Shown: positions 4,851 through 57,411 of the stretch, in pieces
Layout of the letters: every line of letters begins with the position of its first letter
Position numbering within the stretch: position 1 is the first letter of the stretch
NCBI RefSeq assembly: GCF_004365175.1
Contig: NZ_SOCE01000001.1
Coordinates: 4,595,403-4,659,402, forward strand
Direction: 5' to 3'
From: Kribbella voronezhensis
GTDB taxonomy: Bacteria; Actinomycetota; Actinomycetes; Propionibacteriales; Kribbellaceae
Length of the DNA stretch: 64,000 nt
Position numbers and translations under genes: made by a program
Notes under the pieces: generated by a model
What the model saw: the letters and a program-made list of their open reading frames with translations, nothing else
What the model was told of the DNA's origin: nothing
The model's database searches: none

Positions 4851-7769
4851 TCAGGTGTCGAGGAGGCCGTCGCGGCGGGCTACGGCGGCGGCTTCGGTGC
4901 GGGAGCGGACGCCGAGTTTGGCGAGGATGTTGGAGACGTGCACGCTGACCGTCTTCTCGCTGATGTAGAGCTCGCGGGCCAACTGCCGATTCGTCCGGCC
5001 TTCGGCCAGCAACGCAAGCACCTCGGTCTCACGAGCGGTCAACGCCGCAGGTCCTTCTCCTGCCTCTGCCCCGCCGAGTTCGTCGAGCAGCGGTTTGGCG
5101 CCCAGCGCCCGCGCCACCTCGGCCGCGAGTTGAGCCTGCTCGTGCGCCTCGGTGATCCGCCCGCCCGCACGCAGAGCCGCCGACAGATGGACCCGTGAGC
5201 GTGCCTGCTCGAAGACATAGCCGTAGCCGAAGGCGTCGACCGTCCGCTGCCAGGTCGCGACGTGCTCATCGGCCGACGGCGGATCGATCCCCGCCAGCCA
5301 CCGCAGCCGCTCCCACTCCGCCTCCAGCCTGGCCAGCCAAGCGATCCCCTCGACCCCGAGCACGCGCCCGGGCGGCAAGCCCTTCTCCGCTGTCGCCTGC
5401 CCGTCGGCCAGCAGTTCCGCGCCGCGCGCGACCAACTCAGCAGCGGCAGTCGGTTCACTCACCACCCGCTGGCACAGCAACTGCAGGCCGAGTGCGGAGA
5501 ACCGGATCTTCGCCATGAACCACTCGGTCTGGAACACCTCGGCGCACAACGCGGACACGTCGGCGATCAGCTTCTCCGCCTCGGCGACCTGATCCAGCGC
5601 ACGATAGGCATCCACCGCGGGCTGCAGTCCGATGATCGGCAGCATCACATCGAGCGACCACCACTTGCGCAGCCGCTCCAGGTCCTCGGCGACCGCGGTG
5701 TCGCCGCGGCCGCCTCGCACAGCCAGGGCCACTCCTCGCAACGACGCCTCGGCCGCCACCGGTGTCATCGTGTCGACCCGGGCCGTCTCGGCAGCGCCGT
5801 CCCAGTCGCCCAGGATGAACTGGGTCAACGCCAGCATCCGGCGAGCGTCGAACCCATAGGCGGCCCACTGACGCCCGAGCTCACCTGCCCGGTGCCACGC
5901 GTTCTCCATGGAAGCCCTGGCGTTGATCAGGTCGCCCTGCTCGTACTGCGTCGAGCCGAGCAGGAACCTGCTGCGTACTTCGGCCGCCGAGTCGCCGGCC
6001 AGCTGAGCCCGTACGGCGGCTTCCTCCAACTGCTTCACCGCGATGACGGGATCACCGGCCTGGCGGCGCAGCAGAGCGAGGGTGATCCCGGCGTCGCCGG
6101 CCGCGGCCTCCTGACCGATCTCGCGGGCGATCTGGACCGCCTCGAGCGCCCAGCGCTCCGCCTCCATCGGCCGGCCCAGCTGGTAGCAGACATTCGCGTA
6201 CAGCGAGACGACCTGGGCCTTGAAGACGCTCGCCGGCTCGTCGGAGGTCAGCCGCAACGCCTGCGACACAGCCTCGTGCGCTTCCTGGTCATGGTCGATG
6301 TAGAGCGCGATCTCGGCCAGCGGGATCAAGAGCTGAGCCCGCTGCAGGCGCGGTGCGTCGGCCGGCAGCTCGGCCAGGGCCTTGCGGAGCAGCTTCAAGG
6401 CCCGAGGTTGCTGGGCCGACAACGCGGCCGCCCTTGCTGTCTCGACGATCAGCCAGGTCTTGTCGATGCTGGCGTCCCCGGCCGCGTTGGGATAGAGCTC
6501 GAGCGCCATCTCGTAGTGCTTCAGCGCTTCCTGCGGGGCCGCGACCGAGATCGCCTCCTGCCCGGCCCGCACCCGCGCTTCGAAGGCGGTCGCCAGATCG
6601 TGGGAGCGGGTGGCGTGCCCGGCCAGCTCGGCCGCAGTACCGGCGACCGTCTGGTCTTTCAGTGCTTTCGCGTACGCCGCGTGTTGGCGCACCCGCTCGC
6701 CGGGGAGCAGGTCGTCGTAGACCGCCTCGGCCAGCAGCGCGTGGCGGAAGTAGTAGCTCGCGTTGCCCGGGTGCTCGATGATGTGCGCGTCGATGAGCTC
6801 CCGGAGCGCGGCGTCCAGCTCCCGATCGGGTAGGCCGGCCACCGAGGTCAGCAGGGTGTGCGGAACCCGGCGCCCGGCGACAGCGATCACGCGGGCCACC
6901 TGGCGGGCGTCGTCCGACAGCGGGTCGAGCCGGACCAGGAGGAGATCGGCCAGATCCGGCGGTACGGCGTCGGCGTCACCCATCGACGCGGCGGCGACCA
7001 GCTCCTCGGTGAAGAAGGCGTTCCCGCCGGCGCGCTCGAGGATTCGGCGTACCTCCACCTCGGACAGCGGCTCGGTGGTCAGCTCGTTGAGGAGCGTCAG
7101 CGACTCGTCGGCGTCCAGCGGAGCCACGTTCACCCGGCGGACCCGCGGGATGCGGGACCACTCGGCGATCGGGCGGCGGAGCGGGTGCCGCCGGTGCAGG
7201 TCGTCGCTGCGGTAGGAGATCACCAGCGCGAGTCGCTGCGAGGTGAGCCGGGTGAGCAGGAAACCGATCAGGTCCCGGGTCGAGTCGTCGGCCCAGTGCG
7301 CGTCCTCGATGATCACCAGCAGCGGCTCGCTCGTCGACAGCGCGGTGAAGGCTCCGAGCACCGCGTCGAAGAGCGCGGCGCGGTCCAGTTGACCTTCCTG
7401 CGGAACGGCCGGGGCGCCGATCAGCCGGTGCGTGGGCAGCAGCCGGCCGATCGCCGGGAAGTTGTTCAGCACGCTGTCGACCACGTCCGGTCGTTCACCG
7501 GCCAGCCGGCCGAAGATCTCGGTGAAGGCCAGATACGGCAGGCCGGCGTCGCCGAAGTCGGTGCAGTGCCCGACCAGGACACCGAACCCGCGCTCGTGAG
7601 CGCCGGTGGCGACCTCGTCCAGCAGGCGGGTCTTGCCGACGCCGGCGTCGCCGGACAGCAGAACGGCGCCGGCGCGACGCGTTTTGGCGTCGTCGACGGC
7701 GCTGAGCAGGGCGACCATCTCGGTCGAGCGGCCGACGAGAGGTGTCGAGTTCCAGGGCACGACGTCCAT
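4851..7769 (-). CDS. LAL-type LuxR family ATP-binding transcriptional regulator
   Basis: Large (about 970 residues) regulator. N-terminal AAA/STAND ATPase module starts at STPLVGRSTEM and has Walker A GDAGVGKTRL and Walker B LLVIIEDAHWAD; a long TPR-like middle follows; the last 65 residues are a LuxR/GerE helix-turn-helix (LTARETEVLALLAEGRTNRQLARELYISEKTVSVHVSNI). Family members bind DNA as activators. I place the start at ATG 7769, with CAGGGG upstream and the conserved domain beginning a few residues later. The frame stays open to ATG 7943, whose ATGA overlaps the stop of the small protein at 7940, so a translationally coupled longer form is possible. A hairpin at 7892-7929 lies inside that extension. 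It is a likely regulator of the small genes just upstream (inference). Confidence 0.9.
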   Translation of the reverse strand: MDVVPWNSTPLVGRSTEMVALLSAVDDAKTRRAGAVLLSGDAGVGKTRLLDEVATGAHERGFGVLVGHCTDFGDAGLPYLAFTEIFGRLAGERPDVVDSVLNNFPAIGRLLPTHRLIGAPAVPQEGQLDRAALFDAVLGAFTALSTSEPLLVIIEDAHWADDSTRDLIGFLLTRLTSQRLALVISYRSDDLHRRHPLRRPIAEWSRIPRVRRVNVAPLDADESLTLLNELTTEPLSEVEVRRILERAGGNAFFTEELVAAASMGDADAVPPDLADLLLVRLDPLSDDARQVARVIAVAGRRVPHTLLTSVAGLPDRELDAALRELIDAHIIEHPGNASYYFRHALLAEAVYDDLLPGERVRQHAAYAKALKDQTVAGTAAELAGHATRSHDLATAFEARVRAGQEAISVAAPQEALKHYEMALELYPNAAGDASIDKTWLIVETARAAALSAQQPRALKLLRKALAELPADAPRLQRAQLLIPLAEIALYIDHDQEAHEAVSQALRLTSDEPASVFKAQVVSLYANVCYQLGRPMEAERWALEAVQIAREIGQEAAAGDAGITLALLRRQAGDPVIAVKQLEEAAVRAQLAGDSAAEVRSRFLLGSTQYEQGDLINARASMENAWHRAGELGRQWAAYGFDARRMLALTQFILGDWDGAAETARVDTMTPVAAEASLRGVALAVRGGRGDTAVAEDLERLRKWWSLDVMLPIIGLQPAVDAYRALDQVAEAEKLIADVSALCAEVFQTEWFMAKIRFSALGLQLLCQRVVSEPTAAAELVARGAELLADGQATAEKGLPPGRVLGVEGIAWLARLEAEWERLRWLAGIDPPSADEHVATWQRTVDAFGYGYVFEQARSRVHLSAALRAGGRITEAHEQAQLAAEVARALGAKPLLDELGGAEAGEGPAALTARETEVLALLAEGRTNRQLARELYISEKTVSVHVSNILAKLGVRSRTEAAAVARRDGLLDT

Positions 7770-7891
7770 CTTCGCCCCTGGAGCCGACACAATTCGACGG
7801 CATCCCGTCCGCGCGGCGTCCGCGGCCGCACCAACGACTGTCCGGACAGCTGTTCCGGCACCTGTTTTCCGCCCGGCGCCCGGAGAAAGAA

Positions 7892-7929
7892 CACCGTCCC
7901 CGACCTGAGCTATCTGGTCGGGGACGGTG
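7892..7929 (-). terminator. perfect 14-bp hairpin after the small-protein pair
   Basis: CACCGTCCCCGACC (7892-7905) pairs perfectly with 7916-7929 around a 10-base loop. Read leftward, the stem is followed by GTTCTTTCT, a short U-rich tract. It begins 10 bases after the stop of the small gene ending at 7940, so it looks like its Rho-independent terminator and favours a separate start for the LAL gene at 7769. Confidence 0.65.
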
Positions 7930-7939
7930 GTCACGGCGT

Positions 7940-8101
7940 TCATGCGGCGTGAGTGGGTCGCAGGGCCCGGCGCGCGTGCCGCGGTTCGGGCTTAGGGGCC
8001 CGCTCCTGGCTCTCGGTGCGGGCGGTGGCCCGGAACTCGCGCTTGGTCCGTTCGCGTCGGTAGGCGGTCTCCGCCTGGATCGATTGCGTGGTGATGAACA
8101 T
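7940..8101 (-). CDS. small basic protein 1 of a three-member AExxYRxER family
   Basis: 53 residues from ATG 8101, preceded by a strong GGGGAGG site (8107-8113). Sequence begins MFITTQSIQAETAYRRER and continues with TKREF and a tail rich in Arg and Pro. The block AE-x-[AS]-YR-x-ER-x-x-R-[DE]-[FY] is shared with the two neighbouring small proteins, which is strong evidence that all three are genuine genes. Second gene of a pair: only 12 bases separate it from the upstream member, and its ribosome site abuts that stop. Its TGA overlaps ATG 7943 of the possible long LAL form. Function unknown; a short amphipathic, highly basic protein might bind nucleic acid or a protein partner, which is speculation. 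Confidence 0.75.
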   Translation of the reverse strand: MFITTQSIQAETAYRRERTKREFRATARTESQERAPKPEPRHARRALRPTHAA

Positions 8102-8113
8102 GGTTGCCTCCCC

Positions 8114-8245
8114 TCAGGCGTTCTTGGTGAACAGGTGGACGAGGTGCCGGCGGGCTCCGGTACGGCGAGCCGTCCGGCCGTAGTCGCGGGCGAGACGCTC
8201 GCGGCGGTAGCTGACCTCGGCCTTGACGCTGTCGGTGGTGAACAT
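8114..8245 (-). CDS. small basic protein 2 of a three-member AExxYRxER family
   Basis: 43 residues from ATG 8245 with an AGGAGG site (8254-8259) 8 bases upstream. Begins MFTTDSVKAEVSYRRER, followed by LARDY and an Arg-rich end closing in HLFTKNA. It shares the AE-x-x-YR-x-ER-x-x-R core with the members at 7940 and 8608. First gene of a two-gene unit; a promoter block with CTAGG boxes and a 17-base conserved leader lies 45-145 bases upstream. No family recognised. Confidence 0.75.
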   Translation of the reverse strand: MFTTDSVKAEVSYRRERLARDYGRTARRTGARRHLVHLFTKNA

Positions 8246-8290
8246 TTCTTGTGCCTCCTGGTTGTTTCGGCTCCTTGCCGATGCCCCTAA

Positions 8291-8390
8291 TCTGCTCGCC
8301 TGAGGAGGACCCGCACATCGGACTTCCTCCCTATCCCCGCCCCTAGGCGCTCACTAGGGAGTCCTCGTCAACCGGGTTCACCCCCTAGGA
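8291..8390 (-). promoter_or_regulatory. promoter block copy 1: phased CTAGG boxes plus conserved leader
   Basis: Four CTA-containing boxes (CCCTAT, CCCCTAGG, CTAGGG, CCCCTAGG) have CTA at 8331, 8343, 8354 and 8385, i.e. spaced 12, 11 and 31 bp, close to whole helical turns. Downstream (leftward) a 17-base block TCTGCTCGCCTGAGGAG (8291-8307 on +) is identical to one at 8808-8824. CTAGGG resembles the half-site CTVGGG known for some actinobacterial LuxR-type activators; binding by the neighbouring LAL protein is inference. Confidence 0.6.
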
Positions 8391-8421
8391 CCCCCTCCGG
8401 TACGCCGTACGCCAACCACCC

Positions 8422-8543
8422 GGTGAGGCTCGGGAACGCGCGGCGTGGTGAGGAGGAAACGTGGCAGCGTGGTGGGGCCGGGACGCGGAGGCGTGGTGGG
8501 CTGGGAACGCGAAACCGCGGTGAGGCCCGGAACACGGCAGCGC
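8422..8543. repeat. five degenerate 24-25 bp tandem repeats
   Basis: Units begin at 8422, 8447, 8471, 8495 and 8519, each starting GGTG[AG]GG or GGTGGGC, followed by a CGGGAACGCG-like middle and a GCGT/GCGC end. They lie between promoter copy 1 and the terminator of small protein 3, and contain no credible gene. Confidence 0.6.
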
Positions 8544-8575
8544 GGCCGGGTTCCGGTGGGAACCTCGGCCGCGCT
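8539..8575 (-). terminator. strong hairpin terminator of small protein 3
   Basis: AGCGCGGCCG and GGTTCC (8539-8554) pair with GGAACC (8559-8564) and CGGCCGCGCT (8566-8575): a 16-bp stem with one bulged T (8565) and a GGTG loop. It is 33 bases past the stop of the gene at 8608. No U-tract follows, so the call rests on stem strength and position. Confidence 0.55.
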
Positions 8576-8607
8576 GGGGATGGGTGGGGGTGGGGGTGGA
8601 CGGGCGC

Positions 8608-8775
8608 TCACATCGCGTGCCGGGCCTGGACCGCCGGGCGGCAGACCGGTTGCGGAGTGGCCTTCGGGGCGGGCTTCTTCTGGAACCAGAGCGGGCGCTG
8701 GAAGTCCCGCTTGATCCGCTCCTGACGGTAGGCGATCTCCGCGTCGAGGTACTGCGACGAGTAGAACAACATCAT
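8608..8775 (-). CDS. small basic protein 3 of a three-member AExxYRxER family
   Basis: 55 residues from ATG 8775 (or ATG 8772, giving MLFYSS), with GGAGG at 8781-8785. The core reads DAEIAYRQERIKRDF, matching the two smaller relatives at 7940 and 8114, and is followed by a Pro/Lys-rich tail (RPLWFQKKPAPKATPQP). It is transcribed alone, with its own copy of the CTAGG-box promoter block upstream and its own hairpin downstream. Same direction as the other two and the LAL gene. Function unknown. Confidence 0.75.
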   Translation of the reverse strand: MMLFYSSQYLDAEIAYRQERIKRDFQRPLWFQKKPAPKATPQPVCRPAVQARHAM

Positions 8776-8807
8776 GGTGTCCTCCGGGAGCTGGTCGATG
8801 CGACGAC

Positions 8808-8896
8808 TCTGCTCGCCTGAGGAGTACGGGCACATCCGCACAACTCCCTATCCAGCGCCCTAGGTCCGTCGGGGCCTCCCTAGTGCGCCCTTAGGA
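8808..8896 (-). promoter_or_regulatory. promoter block copy 2: phased CTAGG boxes plus conserved leader
   Basis: Second copy of the block. CTA/TTA boxes at 8848 (CCCTAT), 8860 (CCCTAGG), 8880 (CCCTAG) and 8891 (CCTTAGG) are spaced 12, 20 and 11 bp. The 17-base leader TCTGCTCGCCTGAGGAG recurs at 8808-8824, 33 bases ahead of small protein 3. Between leader and boxes both copies also share CACATC and CTCCCTATCC. The outermost boxes overlap the 3' end of the PfkB gene. Confidence 0.6.
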
Positions 8897-9806
8897 ACCC
8901 CTCCAGCCCCGCTCGCGACGGCCCGGTAGCCGGTCCTCGGCGCGTGACCGCAAGAGCCGCCGCCGCATTGGCCCACCGAGCGGCCTCGGCCGGTTCCTTG
9001 CCCTCGGCAATCCCCGCCAGGAACGCCCCCGAATGAGCATCCCCGGCCCCGTTCAGATCCACCGCCTCCACCGCGAACCCGGCCACGCTCACAACCTCGC
9101 CCTGTACTCCGAGTAGGCACCCAGCGCGTCCCACCCGCACCAACACCCTGCCCGCACCGAGTTCGGAGCTCCTTCCCGCTCTCGCCATCAGAGCTCTGGC
9201 CGCTTCGGTGGGGTCGTTCGAGCCGGTCATCGCCTGTGCTTCGGTGGAATTGCAGCTGAGCCAATCGGCCCGGGCGAGGACGGGTTCGAGGGTGGTTGAG
9301 GGGATGTCGGCAACCAACGGACCGGGATCGAAGAAGACCTGGACGCCGGCCGGGATCGTCGGCAGCCAGCGGATCAAGGCGTCTCGGTTCGCGTCGTGGA
9401 GCAGGCTGTAGCCGGAGAGATACACCAGGTCGTCGAGCCCCGGCTGAAAGAGATCGGTACTGCGCAGCGTCGCCTCCGCGCCGGGGCTGGTGACGAAGGT
9501 GCGTTCGCCGGAGGAATCGACGAGGGTGACCACGAAGCCGGTGTCCAGGCCGGTTCTTGCCGGCAGCAACCAGTCGATCCCCTCGGCGAGCAGGGCGGCC
9601 CGCGCCCGATCGCCGAAAGGTCCGGTGCCGAGCGCACCGGCGTACAGGGTGGTCAGGCCGAGGCGGGCGGCGGCGGCCATGACGTTGAAGCCGCCGCCGG
9701 GCGAGGTCGTCGTACTGGAGGCGATGACGTCACCGCCGCGGGCCGGAAGGTCGCCGACGGTGAGGACCAGGTCGACGACGACGTTGCCGAGGTGGACCAG
9801 TCTCAT
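8880..9806 (-). CDS. PfkB-family carbohydrate kinase
   Basis: Phosphorylates a sugar or nucleoside-derived sugar. 308 residues: N-terminal MRLVHLGNVVVDL, substrate motif GGGFNVMAAAARLG (PfkB signature 1), and the C-terminal ATP/anion-hole signature DLNGAGDAHSGAFLAGI with catalytic Asp in NGAGD. ATG 9806 overlaps the stop of the ADP-ribosylglycohydrolase-like gene in an ATGA junction. It is the last gene of a five-gene operon. In that setting a ribokinase-like role on the sugar released by the upstream hydrolase is likely (inference). Confidence 0.9.
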   Translation of the reverse strand: MRLVHLGNVVVDLVLTVGDLPARGGDVIASSTTTSPGGGFNVMAAAARLGLTTLYAGALGTGPFGDRARAALLAEGIDWLLPARTGLDTGFVVTLVDSSGERTFVTSPGAEATLRSTDLFQPGLDDLVYLSGYSLLHDANRDALIRWLPTIPAGVQVFFDPGPLVADIPSTTLEPVLARADWLSCNSTEAQAMTGSNDPTEAARALMARAGRSSELGAGRVLVRVGRAGCLLGVQGEVVSVAGFAVEAVDLNGAGDAHSGAFLAGIAEGKEPAEAARWANAAAALAVTRRGPATGPSRAGLEGFLRAH

Positions 9807-10885
9807 GCGTCGCGTACTTCGAGGAGCCGGCGGGCCAGGTCGTCCAGCCGCAGGTTGTTGACCAGGGCAACGGTTTGCCGGGCGTCGGCCGGGAAGGCCT
9901 CGACGCCGTGGCAGGCGCCGGCGATCGCGCCGGCGATGGCGGCGATGGTGTCGGTGTCGCCGCCGAGCGAGGCGGCCAGCCGGCAGACCAGCCATGGATC
10001 GTCGGGGTAAGCGGCGAGGACGGCGAAGGCAGCCGGTACGGACTCCTGGCTGGCGAGGCTGGTGCCGACCAGTTCGTACACCAGTGCGGACACGGCGCCC
10101 GGCCGAGGAGGGGTAGTACCAGGCGCCGTGTCGATCAGGGGAGTGTCGATGAGAGAGGTGGTGACCGGGGGCTGGCCGACCAGGGATGAGGTGACCAGGG
10201 AGGTGGCCCATCGGATGCGGGTGGCGACGTCTGCGCCGGCTGTCCAGTGGCCGTGGTCGGCCGCGTCGGAAGCGGCCCGGATCGCGATGGGAATCGCTTC
10301 AGCGACGGTGGCGCCGTCGATGCCGGCGCTGACCGCTGCCGCGACGGCTGCTGCGGCCGACAGGGCGAGACCGGTGTTGTGGGTCGCCGCGCTCGCCGCG
10401 AGCACGCGATCGAGCAGCAGACCGTCAGAGCCGAGCGAGGTTGCGATGCCGACGGGGGCGATGCGCATCGCGGCGCCGTTGGTCGTGCCGAAGCGGCCGG
10501 TCTCGGTGATGTCGGTGCCGGCGAGCAGTTCGTCGATTGCACGCTTGGTGGAAGGGCCGAGGAGGTCGAGCGAGCCGCGGGCGCGCATCGAGTCTTCCCA
10601 GGCCAGGAGCCTGCGTGCCAGTTCGTGGCCGTCGATCTTGCCGCGGGAGGAGACCACCAGTTCGCCGAGGAGGATCGCCTGTTCGGTGTCGTCGGTGATC
10701 GCGCCGGCAGGCATGCCCGCCGCCAGTGGCTGGTCGTCGGGCGCCGGATGAAAGCCGTCGAGCAGTTCGCCGTACCGCTCGACGATGAGGGCCCTGGGCA
10801 ACGATTGGGTCGGCATGCCGAGGGCGTCGCCGATCGCCAGACCGTAAAGGGCACCGGCGGCGCGCGCCGTACGGGTAGGGGTCAC
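9803..10885 (-). CDS. ADP-ribosylglycohydrolase (DraG) family protein
   Basis: Binuclear-metal N-glycosidase fold. 360 residues with GLAIGDALGMP near the N-terminus, ITDDTEQA (metal-binding TDDT), NGAAMRIAP, HNTG, and the C-terminal GGDTDTIAAIAGAIAGA metal motif, so the active site looks complete. Starts at GTG 10885 in a GTGA overlap with the GntR stop. Family members remove ADP-ribose from proteins, but versions in catabolic operons next to PfkB kinases probably cleave small N-ribosides; the context here (NCS1 permease, cysteine hydrolase) favours the latter. Confidence 0.9.
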   Translation of the reverse strand: MTPTRTARAAGALYGLAIGDALGMPTQSLPRALIVERYGELLDGFHPAPDDQPLAAGMPAGAITDDTEQAILLGELVVSSRGKIDGHELARRLLAWEDSMRARGSLDLLGPSTKRAIDELLAGTDITETGRFGTTNGAAMRIAPVGIATSLGSDGLLLDRVLAASAATHNTGLALSAAAAVAAAVSAGIDGATVAEAIPIAIRAASDAADHGHWTAGADVATRIRWATSLVTSSLVGQPPVTTSLIDTPLIDTAPGTTPPRPGAVSALVYELVGTSLASQESVPAAFAVLAAYPDDPWLVCRLAASLGGDTDTIAAIAGAIAGACHGVEAFPADARQTVALVNNLRLDDLARRLLEVRDA

Positions 10886-11601
10886 TGGGTGGTTCCGGTG
10901 TAGGTGTGGCTGAGTTCGAAGTGCTGCGGATCCAGCAGGCTGTCGACCTGCTCGGCGAAGCGGTCGTCGGCGGTCCAGCTCGTTCGGCGGGTGTGCAGGA
11001 ACCAGGTGCCGGGCGGTCGCTGCAGCAAGGCGGCCTCTTCGGCGTCGAGAGGGCGGCCGCGGAGGCGTTGCCGGCCGTGGTCGAGGTGGAGACCGGCGTG
11101 CCCGAGGGTCGCGATGATCGAGTCGTTCAGCAGTCCGCGCGACGGCAGGTCGCGGAGCTCGCCGATCGCGGGGATGCGGCTGCGTTCGATCGAGATCGGT
11201 TCGCCGCCGATGATCACCCGGAGCCGCTCGATCACGATCAGGTCGGGCGATTCCAGGCCGACCCGCTCGGTCAGCACCGGGTCCTGCACGAGCGCGAGCC
11301 GTAGTACGCGGACCTGGGTCTCGACGCCTTGGGCTGCCAGGGCGTGCGTCCAGCCGAGCCGGTCGTCGAGAGGGCGGCCGTCGAACAGGACGAACGACCC
11401 CTTGCCGGTCCGGGTGGTGATCAGCCCGTCCTCGTTCAGTACGGCGAGCGCCGAGCGGACCGTGTTCCGGCTGACGGCGAACCGTTTGGCCAGCTCGACC
11501 TCGCCCGGCAGTTGGTCCCCGTGCCCGACCCGGCCGGAGCGGATCTCCCGGGCCAGGATCGACGCGATCCGCTCGTGTTTGAGGTTCACGCCACGGATCA
11601 C
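10882..11601 (-). CDS. GntR/HutC-family transcriptional regulator
   Basis: 239 residues from GTG 11601, which overlaps the stop of the cysteine hydrolase (GTGA). N-terminal winged helix (KHERIASILAREIRSGRVGHGDQLPGEVELAKRFAVSRNTVRSALAVLNEDG) and a C-terminal UTRA-type effector domain (residues about 90-235, with TSWTADDRFAEQVDSLLD near the end). Encoded inside the operon it presumably controls. Candidate operator: the CCTGTTCA repeats ahead of the permease at 13620-13641. Confidence 0.9.
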   Translation of the reverse strand: MIRGVNLKHERIASILAREIRSGRVGHGDQLPGEVELAKRFAVSRNTVRSALAVLNEDGLITTRTGKGSFVLFDGRPLDDRLGWTHALAAQGVETQVRVLRLALVQDPVLTERVGLESPDLIVIERLRVIIGGEPISIERSRIPAIGELRDLPSRGLLNDSIIATLGHAGLHLDHGRQRLRGRPLDAEEAALLQRPPGTWFLHTRRTSWTADDRFAEQVDSLLDPQHFELSHTYTGTTQ

Positions 11602-12131
11602 TGCTGCCCCGCGCGGTTCACCAGCTCGTCGACCGTGACGACCTCGAGCATGGGGGAGTAGAGGCGCATCAGATCGATCGCCTTGCGGTGGCTGGCCTCG
11701 TCCACTCCGGCGCACGCGTCCTCGACCACCTGTACTGCGACGCCCGCATCGACCGCGGCCAGGGCAGTCGTGAGCACGCAGCAGTCCGTGGTCACCCCAC
11801 TGAGCACGAGGTGCCCATTGGCGGCTGCCGCGAGTTCAGGACCCCACTTGCCGAAGGTCGTCTTGTCGAGCGTCGGGGCACCGCGGAACTCGTCGACCAG
11901 CTGGTAGGCGTACGAATCGGGCGGCTGGAGCGCGAACGGCCACTGTTCGTAGTACGGGATCCACGAGCCGGTCGGGTGCTCGGGCGCGATGAAACGGGTG
12001 AAGACGACGTCCTCGCCGAACAGCTCGACCAGTCGCTGGGTCGGTTTCACCACCCGCTGGAAGTCCGGCGTGGCCCAGCCGCTCTCGGGTTCGGCGAAGA
12101 TGCGTTGCAGGTCGATGACCGCGAGCACCAT
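11598..12131 (-). CDS. isochorismatase-family cysteine hydrolase
   Basis: 177 residues. Begins MVLAVIDLQRIFAEPESGW with the catalytic Asp in VIDLQ, has the Lys in LDKTTFGKWG and the cis-peptide/nucleophile segment SGVTTDCCVLTTALAA with Cys following the aspartate. The family includes nicotinamidase, N-carbamoylsarcosine amidase and biuret/ureidoacrylate hydrolases, so hydrolysis of an amide or carbamoyl group of the imported compound is likely. ATG 12131 shares a base with the permease stop (TGATG). Confidence 0.88.
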   Translation of the reverse strand: MVLAVIDLQRIFAEPESGWATPDFQRVVKPTQRLVELFGEDVVFTRFIAPEHPTGSWIPYYEQWPFALQPPDSYAYQLVDEFRGAPTLDKTTFGKWGPELAAAANGHLVLSGVTTDCCVLTTALAAVDAGVAVQVVEDACAGVDEASHRKAIDLMRLYSPMLEVVTVDELVNRAGQQ

Positions 12132-57281: not shown

Positions 57282-57411
57282 CGCCGCACCCTAACGCGTG
57301 GAAGCCTTGCGAGTACGGCCGAACAGGTGGGAAGTGTCGGTGGGTTTGCCTAGTGTCAGGGATGCGGCCGGGTTGGTCGGGCGGTGGGGATCGGGTGGGT
57401 GGAGTGAAGGT

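Follow-up and report, generated by a model that had tools for sequence, protein, structure and literature searches.

In Kribbella voronezhensis, three neighbouring small genes, A, B and C, are predicted to encode paralogous small, basic, mostly helical proteins of an uncharacterised family, and they lie directly upstream of a gene for a large ATP-binding LuxR-type (LAL) regulator. As judged from genome sequence comparison, the linkage of this family to one orthologous group of LAL regulators recurs in about 20 genera. Transcription of A and of B-C probably starts from copies of one conserved promoter block, and the LAL gene is preceded by an element resembling the RecA-NDp/PafBC promoters of DNA-repair genes. 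The most economical reading would be that the LAL activates the adjacent small genes, that their products are the effectors, and that control by DNA damage is the likely input. Positions are those of the window, the whole stretch of 64,000 nucleotides that was analysed.

Three related small genes and their regulator

The original prediction held that three leftward open reading frames lie here, each behind a strong ribosome site and with a shared AE...YR...ER core. All three are present (Table 1); each begins with ATG behind a purine-rich ribosome site, which is also strong in the orthologs, and each contains the sequence AE-x-x-YR-x-ER-x-x-R. Searches with A, B and C singly, or with a 46-member family, returned no match in Pfam, NCBIfam or PDB, in agreement with the earlier view that the family is undescribed. 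A structured RNA in place of protein-coding genes was rejected, the locus having no match to a structured-RNA family in Rfam.

Protein-level selection had also been proposed. Within Kribbella, pN/pS over the core is 0.49 for A, 0.48 for B and 0.55 for C, which supports such selection in the core of all three proteins. Over the full length the values are 0.56, 0.90 and 0.65, respectively, and the claim is weak for B as a whole because this gene shows little variation at synonymous sites. From genus to genus the motif persists although the codons for its A and R residues differ, and we regard this distant conservation as a better argument for translation than pN/pS. The predicted structure of B is a single helix spanning residues 4-41 with a mean pLDDT of 74.5, lower past residue 20. 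Among 66 distinct small-protein sequences from outside Kribbella, the A, E, Y and R residues are nearly invariant and the conservation moment at 100 degrees follows a helical period (permutation 0.043), a modest signal for conservation along one face of the predicted helix.

Genes B and C are separated by 12 nt and C has no promoter block of its own. The hairpin past C has arms at 7889-7908 and 7913-7932 and a fold of -37 kcal/mol, is followed by a T-rich stretch, and recurs in nearly all Kribbella with compensating changes, and the two genes probably form a unit closed by a hairpin, as had been suggested. For gene A, the earlier claim of a separate promoter is borne out by the conserved block, while that of a separate terminator stands only in part: the hairpin downstream of A has no T-run and was not called by terminator prediction. 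Three imperfect 24-nt tandem copies occupy window positions 8440-8511, between this hairpin and the promoter of B.

Table 1. Features of the small-gene and LAL locus (window positions)
Feature	Position	Strand	Details
Promoter/operator block of A	8818..8852	-	GATAGGGAGTTGTGCGGATGTGCCCGTACTCCTCA
Putative -10 of gene A	8806-8811	-	CAGAGT; predicted transcription start about 8798, both placed from leaderless relatives
Small gene A	8608..8775	-	55 aa, MMLFYSSQYLDAEIAYRQERIKRDFQRPLWF...; ribosome site GGAGG; conserved in Kribbella
Hairpin downstream of A	8538..8576	-	perfect 11-bp arms, no T-run
Promoter/operator block of B	8301..8335	-	GATAGGGAGGAAGTCCGATGTGCGGGTCCTCCTCA
Putative -10 of gene B	8289-8294	-	CAGATT; predicted transcription start about 8281
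Small gene B	8114..8245	-	43 aa, MFTTDSVKAEVSYRRERLARDYGRTARR...
Small gene C	7940..8101	-	53 aa, MFITTQSIQAETAYRRERTKREF...; probably on one transcript with B
Intrinsic terminator closing the B-C unit	7882..7932	-	parts B-C from the LAL; stem conserved in Kribbella
LAL promoter, RecA-NDp/PafBC-like	7764..7796	-	GTGTCGGCT-N8-GAAGAT, 7 nt to GTG
LAL regulator	4851..7763	-	AAA_16 ATPase, TPR, C-terminal LuxR HTH; about 970 aa from GTG 7763

The large LuxR/LAL regulator expected after the small genes was recovered by domain searches. Its N-terminal ATPase matches AAA_16 (E 3.5e-29), with G41, A43, G44, G46 and K47 of the Walker A region invariant among 14 LALs; the middle repeat region matches TPR_12, and residues 910-965 match the GerE HTH (E 7.2e-21). 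The protein thus combines the N-terminal ATPase, the large size with repeats and the C-terminal LuxR HTH of a LAL, and probably starts at GTG 7763 rather than at ATG 7772.

Conserved linkage across genera

A profile built from the three small proteins found matches in all 38 Kribbella genomes searched. The order A-B-C-LAL on a common strand is present in 37 of these, and in the remaining genome (G029, L044) A is lost and B-C-LAL kept; one Kribbella locus is broken by a contig boundary into A and B-C-LAL (L070, L071), an arrangement consistent with that order. While A-B-C-LAL is fixed, the genes around it, among them those for PfkB and ADP-ribosylglycohydrolase, vary from genome to genome. We take the set not to be due to chance, because in 37 of the 38 genomes all three genes occur together at a single locus, and in the last one B and C do. 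The minus-strand neighbours in the window (8880-11715) encode a PfkB-type kinase, an ADP-ribosylglycohydrolase and a GntR-UTRA regulator, the first two of which adjoin the locus in some Kribbella genomes but not in others.

Profile searches farther afield recovered the linkage of homologues to LALs for which the original prediction had proposed to look. At the level of the order, 73 of 294 genomes matched, and Nocardioidaceae carry a single small gene of 38-63 aa directly before a LAL that is 38-46% identical to that of the window. The small-protein profile alone matched 35 of 395 genomes of the class, in 17 genera; in the longer loci from outside the order (L171-L186) a LAL, full or cut by the contig end, lay just downstream in 16 of 16, with 37-47% identity to the window's LAL. 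The linked LAL was the top LAL match in its own genome, and it usually scored about twice as high as the runner-up. Outside Kribbella, the AE-x-x-YR relatives are single-copy genes directly upstream of the orthologous LAL, as seen in Nocardioides, Geodermatophilaceae, Jiangella, Pseudonocardiaceae and others.

We also surveyed 80 named LAL loci for the small gene, which was found in Nocardioides, Blastococcus, Geodermatophilus, Jiangella, Kibdelosporangium, Saccharothrix, Actinophytocola, Amycolatopsis, Actinokineospora, Isoptericola, Cellulomonas, Ornithinimicrobium and others; LAL loci that the strict motif had missed carry relaxed variants such as SEIEYRREE. With Streptomyces and Streptosporangiaceae left out, the small gene accompanies 37 of 45 named LAL orthologs, and the promoter core described below is likewise present in 37 of 45 named loci, versus none of 28 in those two groups. 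The small gene is also absent from all 28 LAL orthologs of Streptomyces and Streptosporangiaceae, where the regulator must therefore act on other targets. In a control comparison, a small ORF with the motif and a ribosome site was present in 31 of the 70 regions upstream of a LAL, compared with 0 of the 70 reverse strands and 5 of the 2124 background windows.

Several related loci depart from this arrangement. Two C-type paralogues away from the locus, together with four relatives from another genus (L127 8189, L128 7775, L119, L120, L122, L123), lack a neighbouring LAL and are preceded by a different block, TGTCGRATCCG...CGTTCGTCG, perhaps an ECF sigma promoter; in four of these loci the position of the ATG reads ATT or ACT, with a good ribosome site before it. 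A different type of small basic protein (MGPDIHFDLMVTRTAELRAEAAEHR...) precedes a paralogous LAL behind a similar promoter block (L286-L293, L197, L195), and this was the case in 8 of 8 Streptosporangiaceae-like matches. In one genome of another family (G038, L191 3470-4170), a small basic ORF (MTDDYSYGWEHRARITELQDIAAMDRL...) with the block and the orthologous LAL are arranged divergently.

Promoters of the small genes and of the LAL

That the small genes are regulated, as had been predicted, is supported by the conserved promoter before A and B. One copy of a 74-nt upstream block stands before each of these genes. Its core, GATAGGG-N7-CNGATGT-N6-CTMCCTCA, searched with up to one mismatch, occurred 9 times in the 395 genomes of the class and its reversed control 0 times; of these occurrences, all 6 that were opened in longer loci precede a LAL. 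Within Kribbella a 38-nt form of the block is nearly confined to the regions before A and B. In all families compared the block ends in the -10-like sequence [CG]A[AG][TC]CT, and a few relatives have their start codon about 7 nt past this -10, from which we infer the transcription start and a position of the palindrome near -45. A sigma-70 consensus scan found no promoter at the locus. The exact palindrome TGAGGCANNTGCCTCATG was found in 0 of 148 genomes and is thereby ruled out as a general operator.

The block also occurs away from the LAL locus. In one genome (G015, L285 5094-7958) the block together with the first codons of B (MFTTDSVKAEV) precedes an ATP-grasp-like ORF, which is followed by an MFS-like transporter, and in another (G003, L284 4624-5200) the block precedes a related MFS-like gene; the names ATP-grasp-like and MFS-like rest on reading of the sequence rather than on a search of family models. 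These two copies suggest that the block works as a unit outside the locus.

The LAL gene probably has its own leaderless promoter, a feature that the original prediction did not include. Conserved from Kribbella to Streptomyces are the TGTCGG core, a spacing of 10 nt to a -10 with A at position 2 and T at position 6, and a distance of mostly 7 nt to the GTG. As a -35 box, TTGTCGG was ruled out by its distance of 10-11 nt from the -10, and the same distance leads to the RecA-NDp reading. The published consensus for the RecA-independent damage promoter is tTGTCRgtg-8-TannnT (PMC5656591), and PafBC acts through this promoter (PMC6789036). A TGTCGG-type core at a fixed distance before a -10 and the start codon is present in 106 of 147 LAL loci, and a looser pattern of the element was unmatched in 41 of the 147. 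With a matrix made from repair-gene sites, the window's LAL site ranked 14th of 127,952 window positions and 75 of 157 LAL loci reached 6 bits versus 0.3% of random windows, scores that largely reflect the TGTCGG core because the matrix sites were chosen with the strict pattern.

In the genome of the window, the strict element with a start codon gave 24 matches versus 1 in the control, and 11 of the 24 precede DNA-repair or related helicase/nuclease genes. These 11 are uvrB, radA, rmuC, a uvrA paralogue, three DUF222/HNH genes and the genes for an lhr-like helicase, a DEDD/UvrC-like exonuclease, an AddB-like nuclease and a SCO1167-type helicase. A two-gene WYL set at C3:42474-43648, near a gene of the Pup-ligase family (pafA/dop-type), is a candidate for PafBC. 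Two further strong RecA-NDp-like sites lie on the plus strand of the window at 57332 and 47011, and at the latter an ATG 7 nt past the -10 opens a 208-aa ORF.

Taken together, these promoter comparisons make damage induction of the LAL plausible. The same evidence bears on a different view, in which the LAL would be made constitutively from an ordinary leaderless promoter and would activate the small genes in response to a small-molecule ligand, with no role for damage. In its favour, LAL regulators are MalT-like ATP-binding proteins (PMC3282765), and the element is missing in part of the loci and degenerate in Kribbella, where the window's copy departs from the strict PafBC consensus in its flanks (TGTCGGCT) and in the first base of its -10 (GAAGAT). 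Against this, the TGTCGG core at a fixed spacing from -10 and start is far above background, and repair genes of this very genome carry the element as well; we see constitutive synthesis as a possibility of some weight that is nonetheless less probable than damage control.

A proposed damage-linked circuit, its rivals and known systems

We propose that a damage-linked LAL activates A, B and C as its main output and that the small proteins act on a partner, a proposal for which we find the case evenly balanced. The LAL would be transcribed alone from its leaderless RecA-NDp/PafBC-type promoter, and DNA damage would raise its level. As a MalT-like ATPase it would assemble on an operator array consisting of the imperfect palindrome GATAGGG-N7-CNGATGT at about -45 and flanking half-sites, which may be CTACCTCAG/CTCCTCAG together with an upstream CCTAGG or CTGAGGTAG, and it would then activate both small-gene promoters, that of A and that of B-C, activation rather than repression being what we infer. 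The small proteins would bind their partner through the conserved helix face (A, E, Y, R), and the variable basic tail would contact nucleic acid, the ribosome or RNA polymerase. More tentatively, and with somewhat less than even confidence, PafBC, the LAL and small helical basic damage effectors could form successive steps of a second tier, so far undescribed, in the response of actinobacteria to DNA damage.

The main rival makes the small proteins feedback partners of the LAL, which would be under its control, bind its ATPase or TPR region and restrain or sharpen its response. MalT is restrained in this way by MalK, MalY and Aes. The almost one-to-one pairing of small genes and one LAL group in genomes, the near absence of the operator elsewhere in the genome, and the conserved residues on one helix face, which suggest a conserved partner, are all in keeping with feedback. 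However, LAL orthologs that have no small gene are common in two groups, and the presence of three paralogues in Kribbella and of LAL-free relatives suggests a function beyond the LAL. We consider feedback rather unlikely.

Less probable still, and in our judgement doubtful, is that another regulator recognises the block and that the LAL and the small genes adjoin through a shared pathway. A related block before the different small-protein type beside a paralogous LAL could point to such a shared factor, but the block, the small gene and the LAL group travel together, and palindromic, repeated sites would suit a LuxR-type HTH protein. That the small ORFs are leader peptides controlling translation or transcription of the LAL, as their position just upstream of it in most genera might suggest, is very improbable, being contradicted by the conserved terminator and separate LAL promoter in Kribbella, by two or three tandem genes with a conserved protein core, and by the one divergent arrangement.

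Activation of the small genes by a damage-linked LAL would matter beyond this locus. LAL regulators are common in actinobacteria, yet few have known direct targets; here one LAL group appears to have, in many genera, a recognisable and almost private target promoter with a defined output of small proteins, and the group's own promoter points to DNA damage. Signal, operator and effector are thereby directly testable. The small-protein family has likely been missed by automatic annotation because of its size.

A literature search for LAL regulators together with small proteins found nothing relevant. The nearest analogue is AfsR, a large ATPase-TPR activator of the small-protein gene afsS (PMC10936776, PMC3282765), and the likeness would extend to a large ATPase-TPR activator, a gene for a small regulatory protein and a site overlapping the -35 or spacer. 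AfsR, however, has an N-terminal SARP domain and binds two 11-bp direct repeats overlapping the -35, whereas the window's LAL has no SARP domain and a C-terminal LuxR (GerE) HTH, and the putative site is the imperfect palindrome with half-sites. A-B-C-LAL is thus not a member of the AfsR-AfsS type, because both the SARP domain and the direct-repeat site are absent. In domain architecture the regulator resembles SCO0877/SCO7173, PikD and MalT, which likewise combine an AAA_16 ATPase and a TPR region with a LuxR HTH at the C-terminus; in the sections of PMC3282765 consulted, LALs are tied to secondary metabolism or phosphate, and neither a linked small-protein gene nor a RecA-NDp-like promoter for them was found there. 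A LAL regulator was likewise not found as a member of the RecA-NDp/PafBC regulon in PMC5656591, PMC6789036 and PMC11804915. The LAL element shares with the promoters described in those papers the TGTCGG core, the spacing to the -10 and the position, and differs from them in being partly degenerate.
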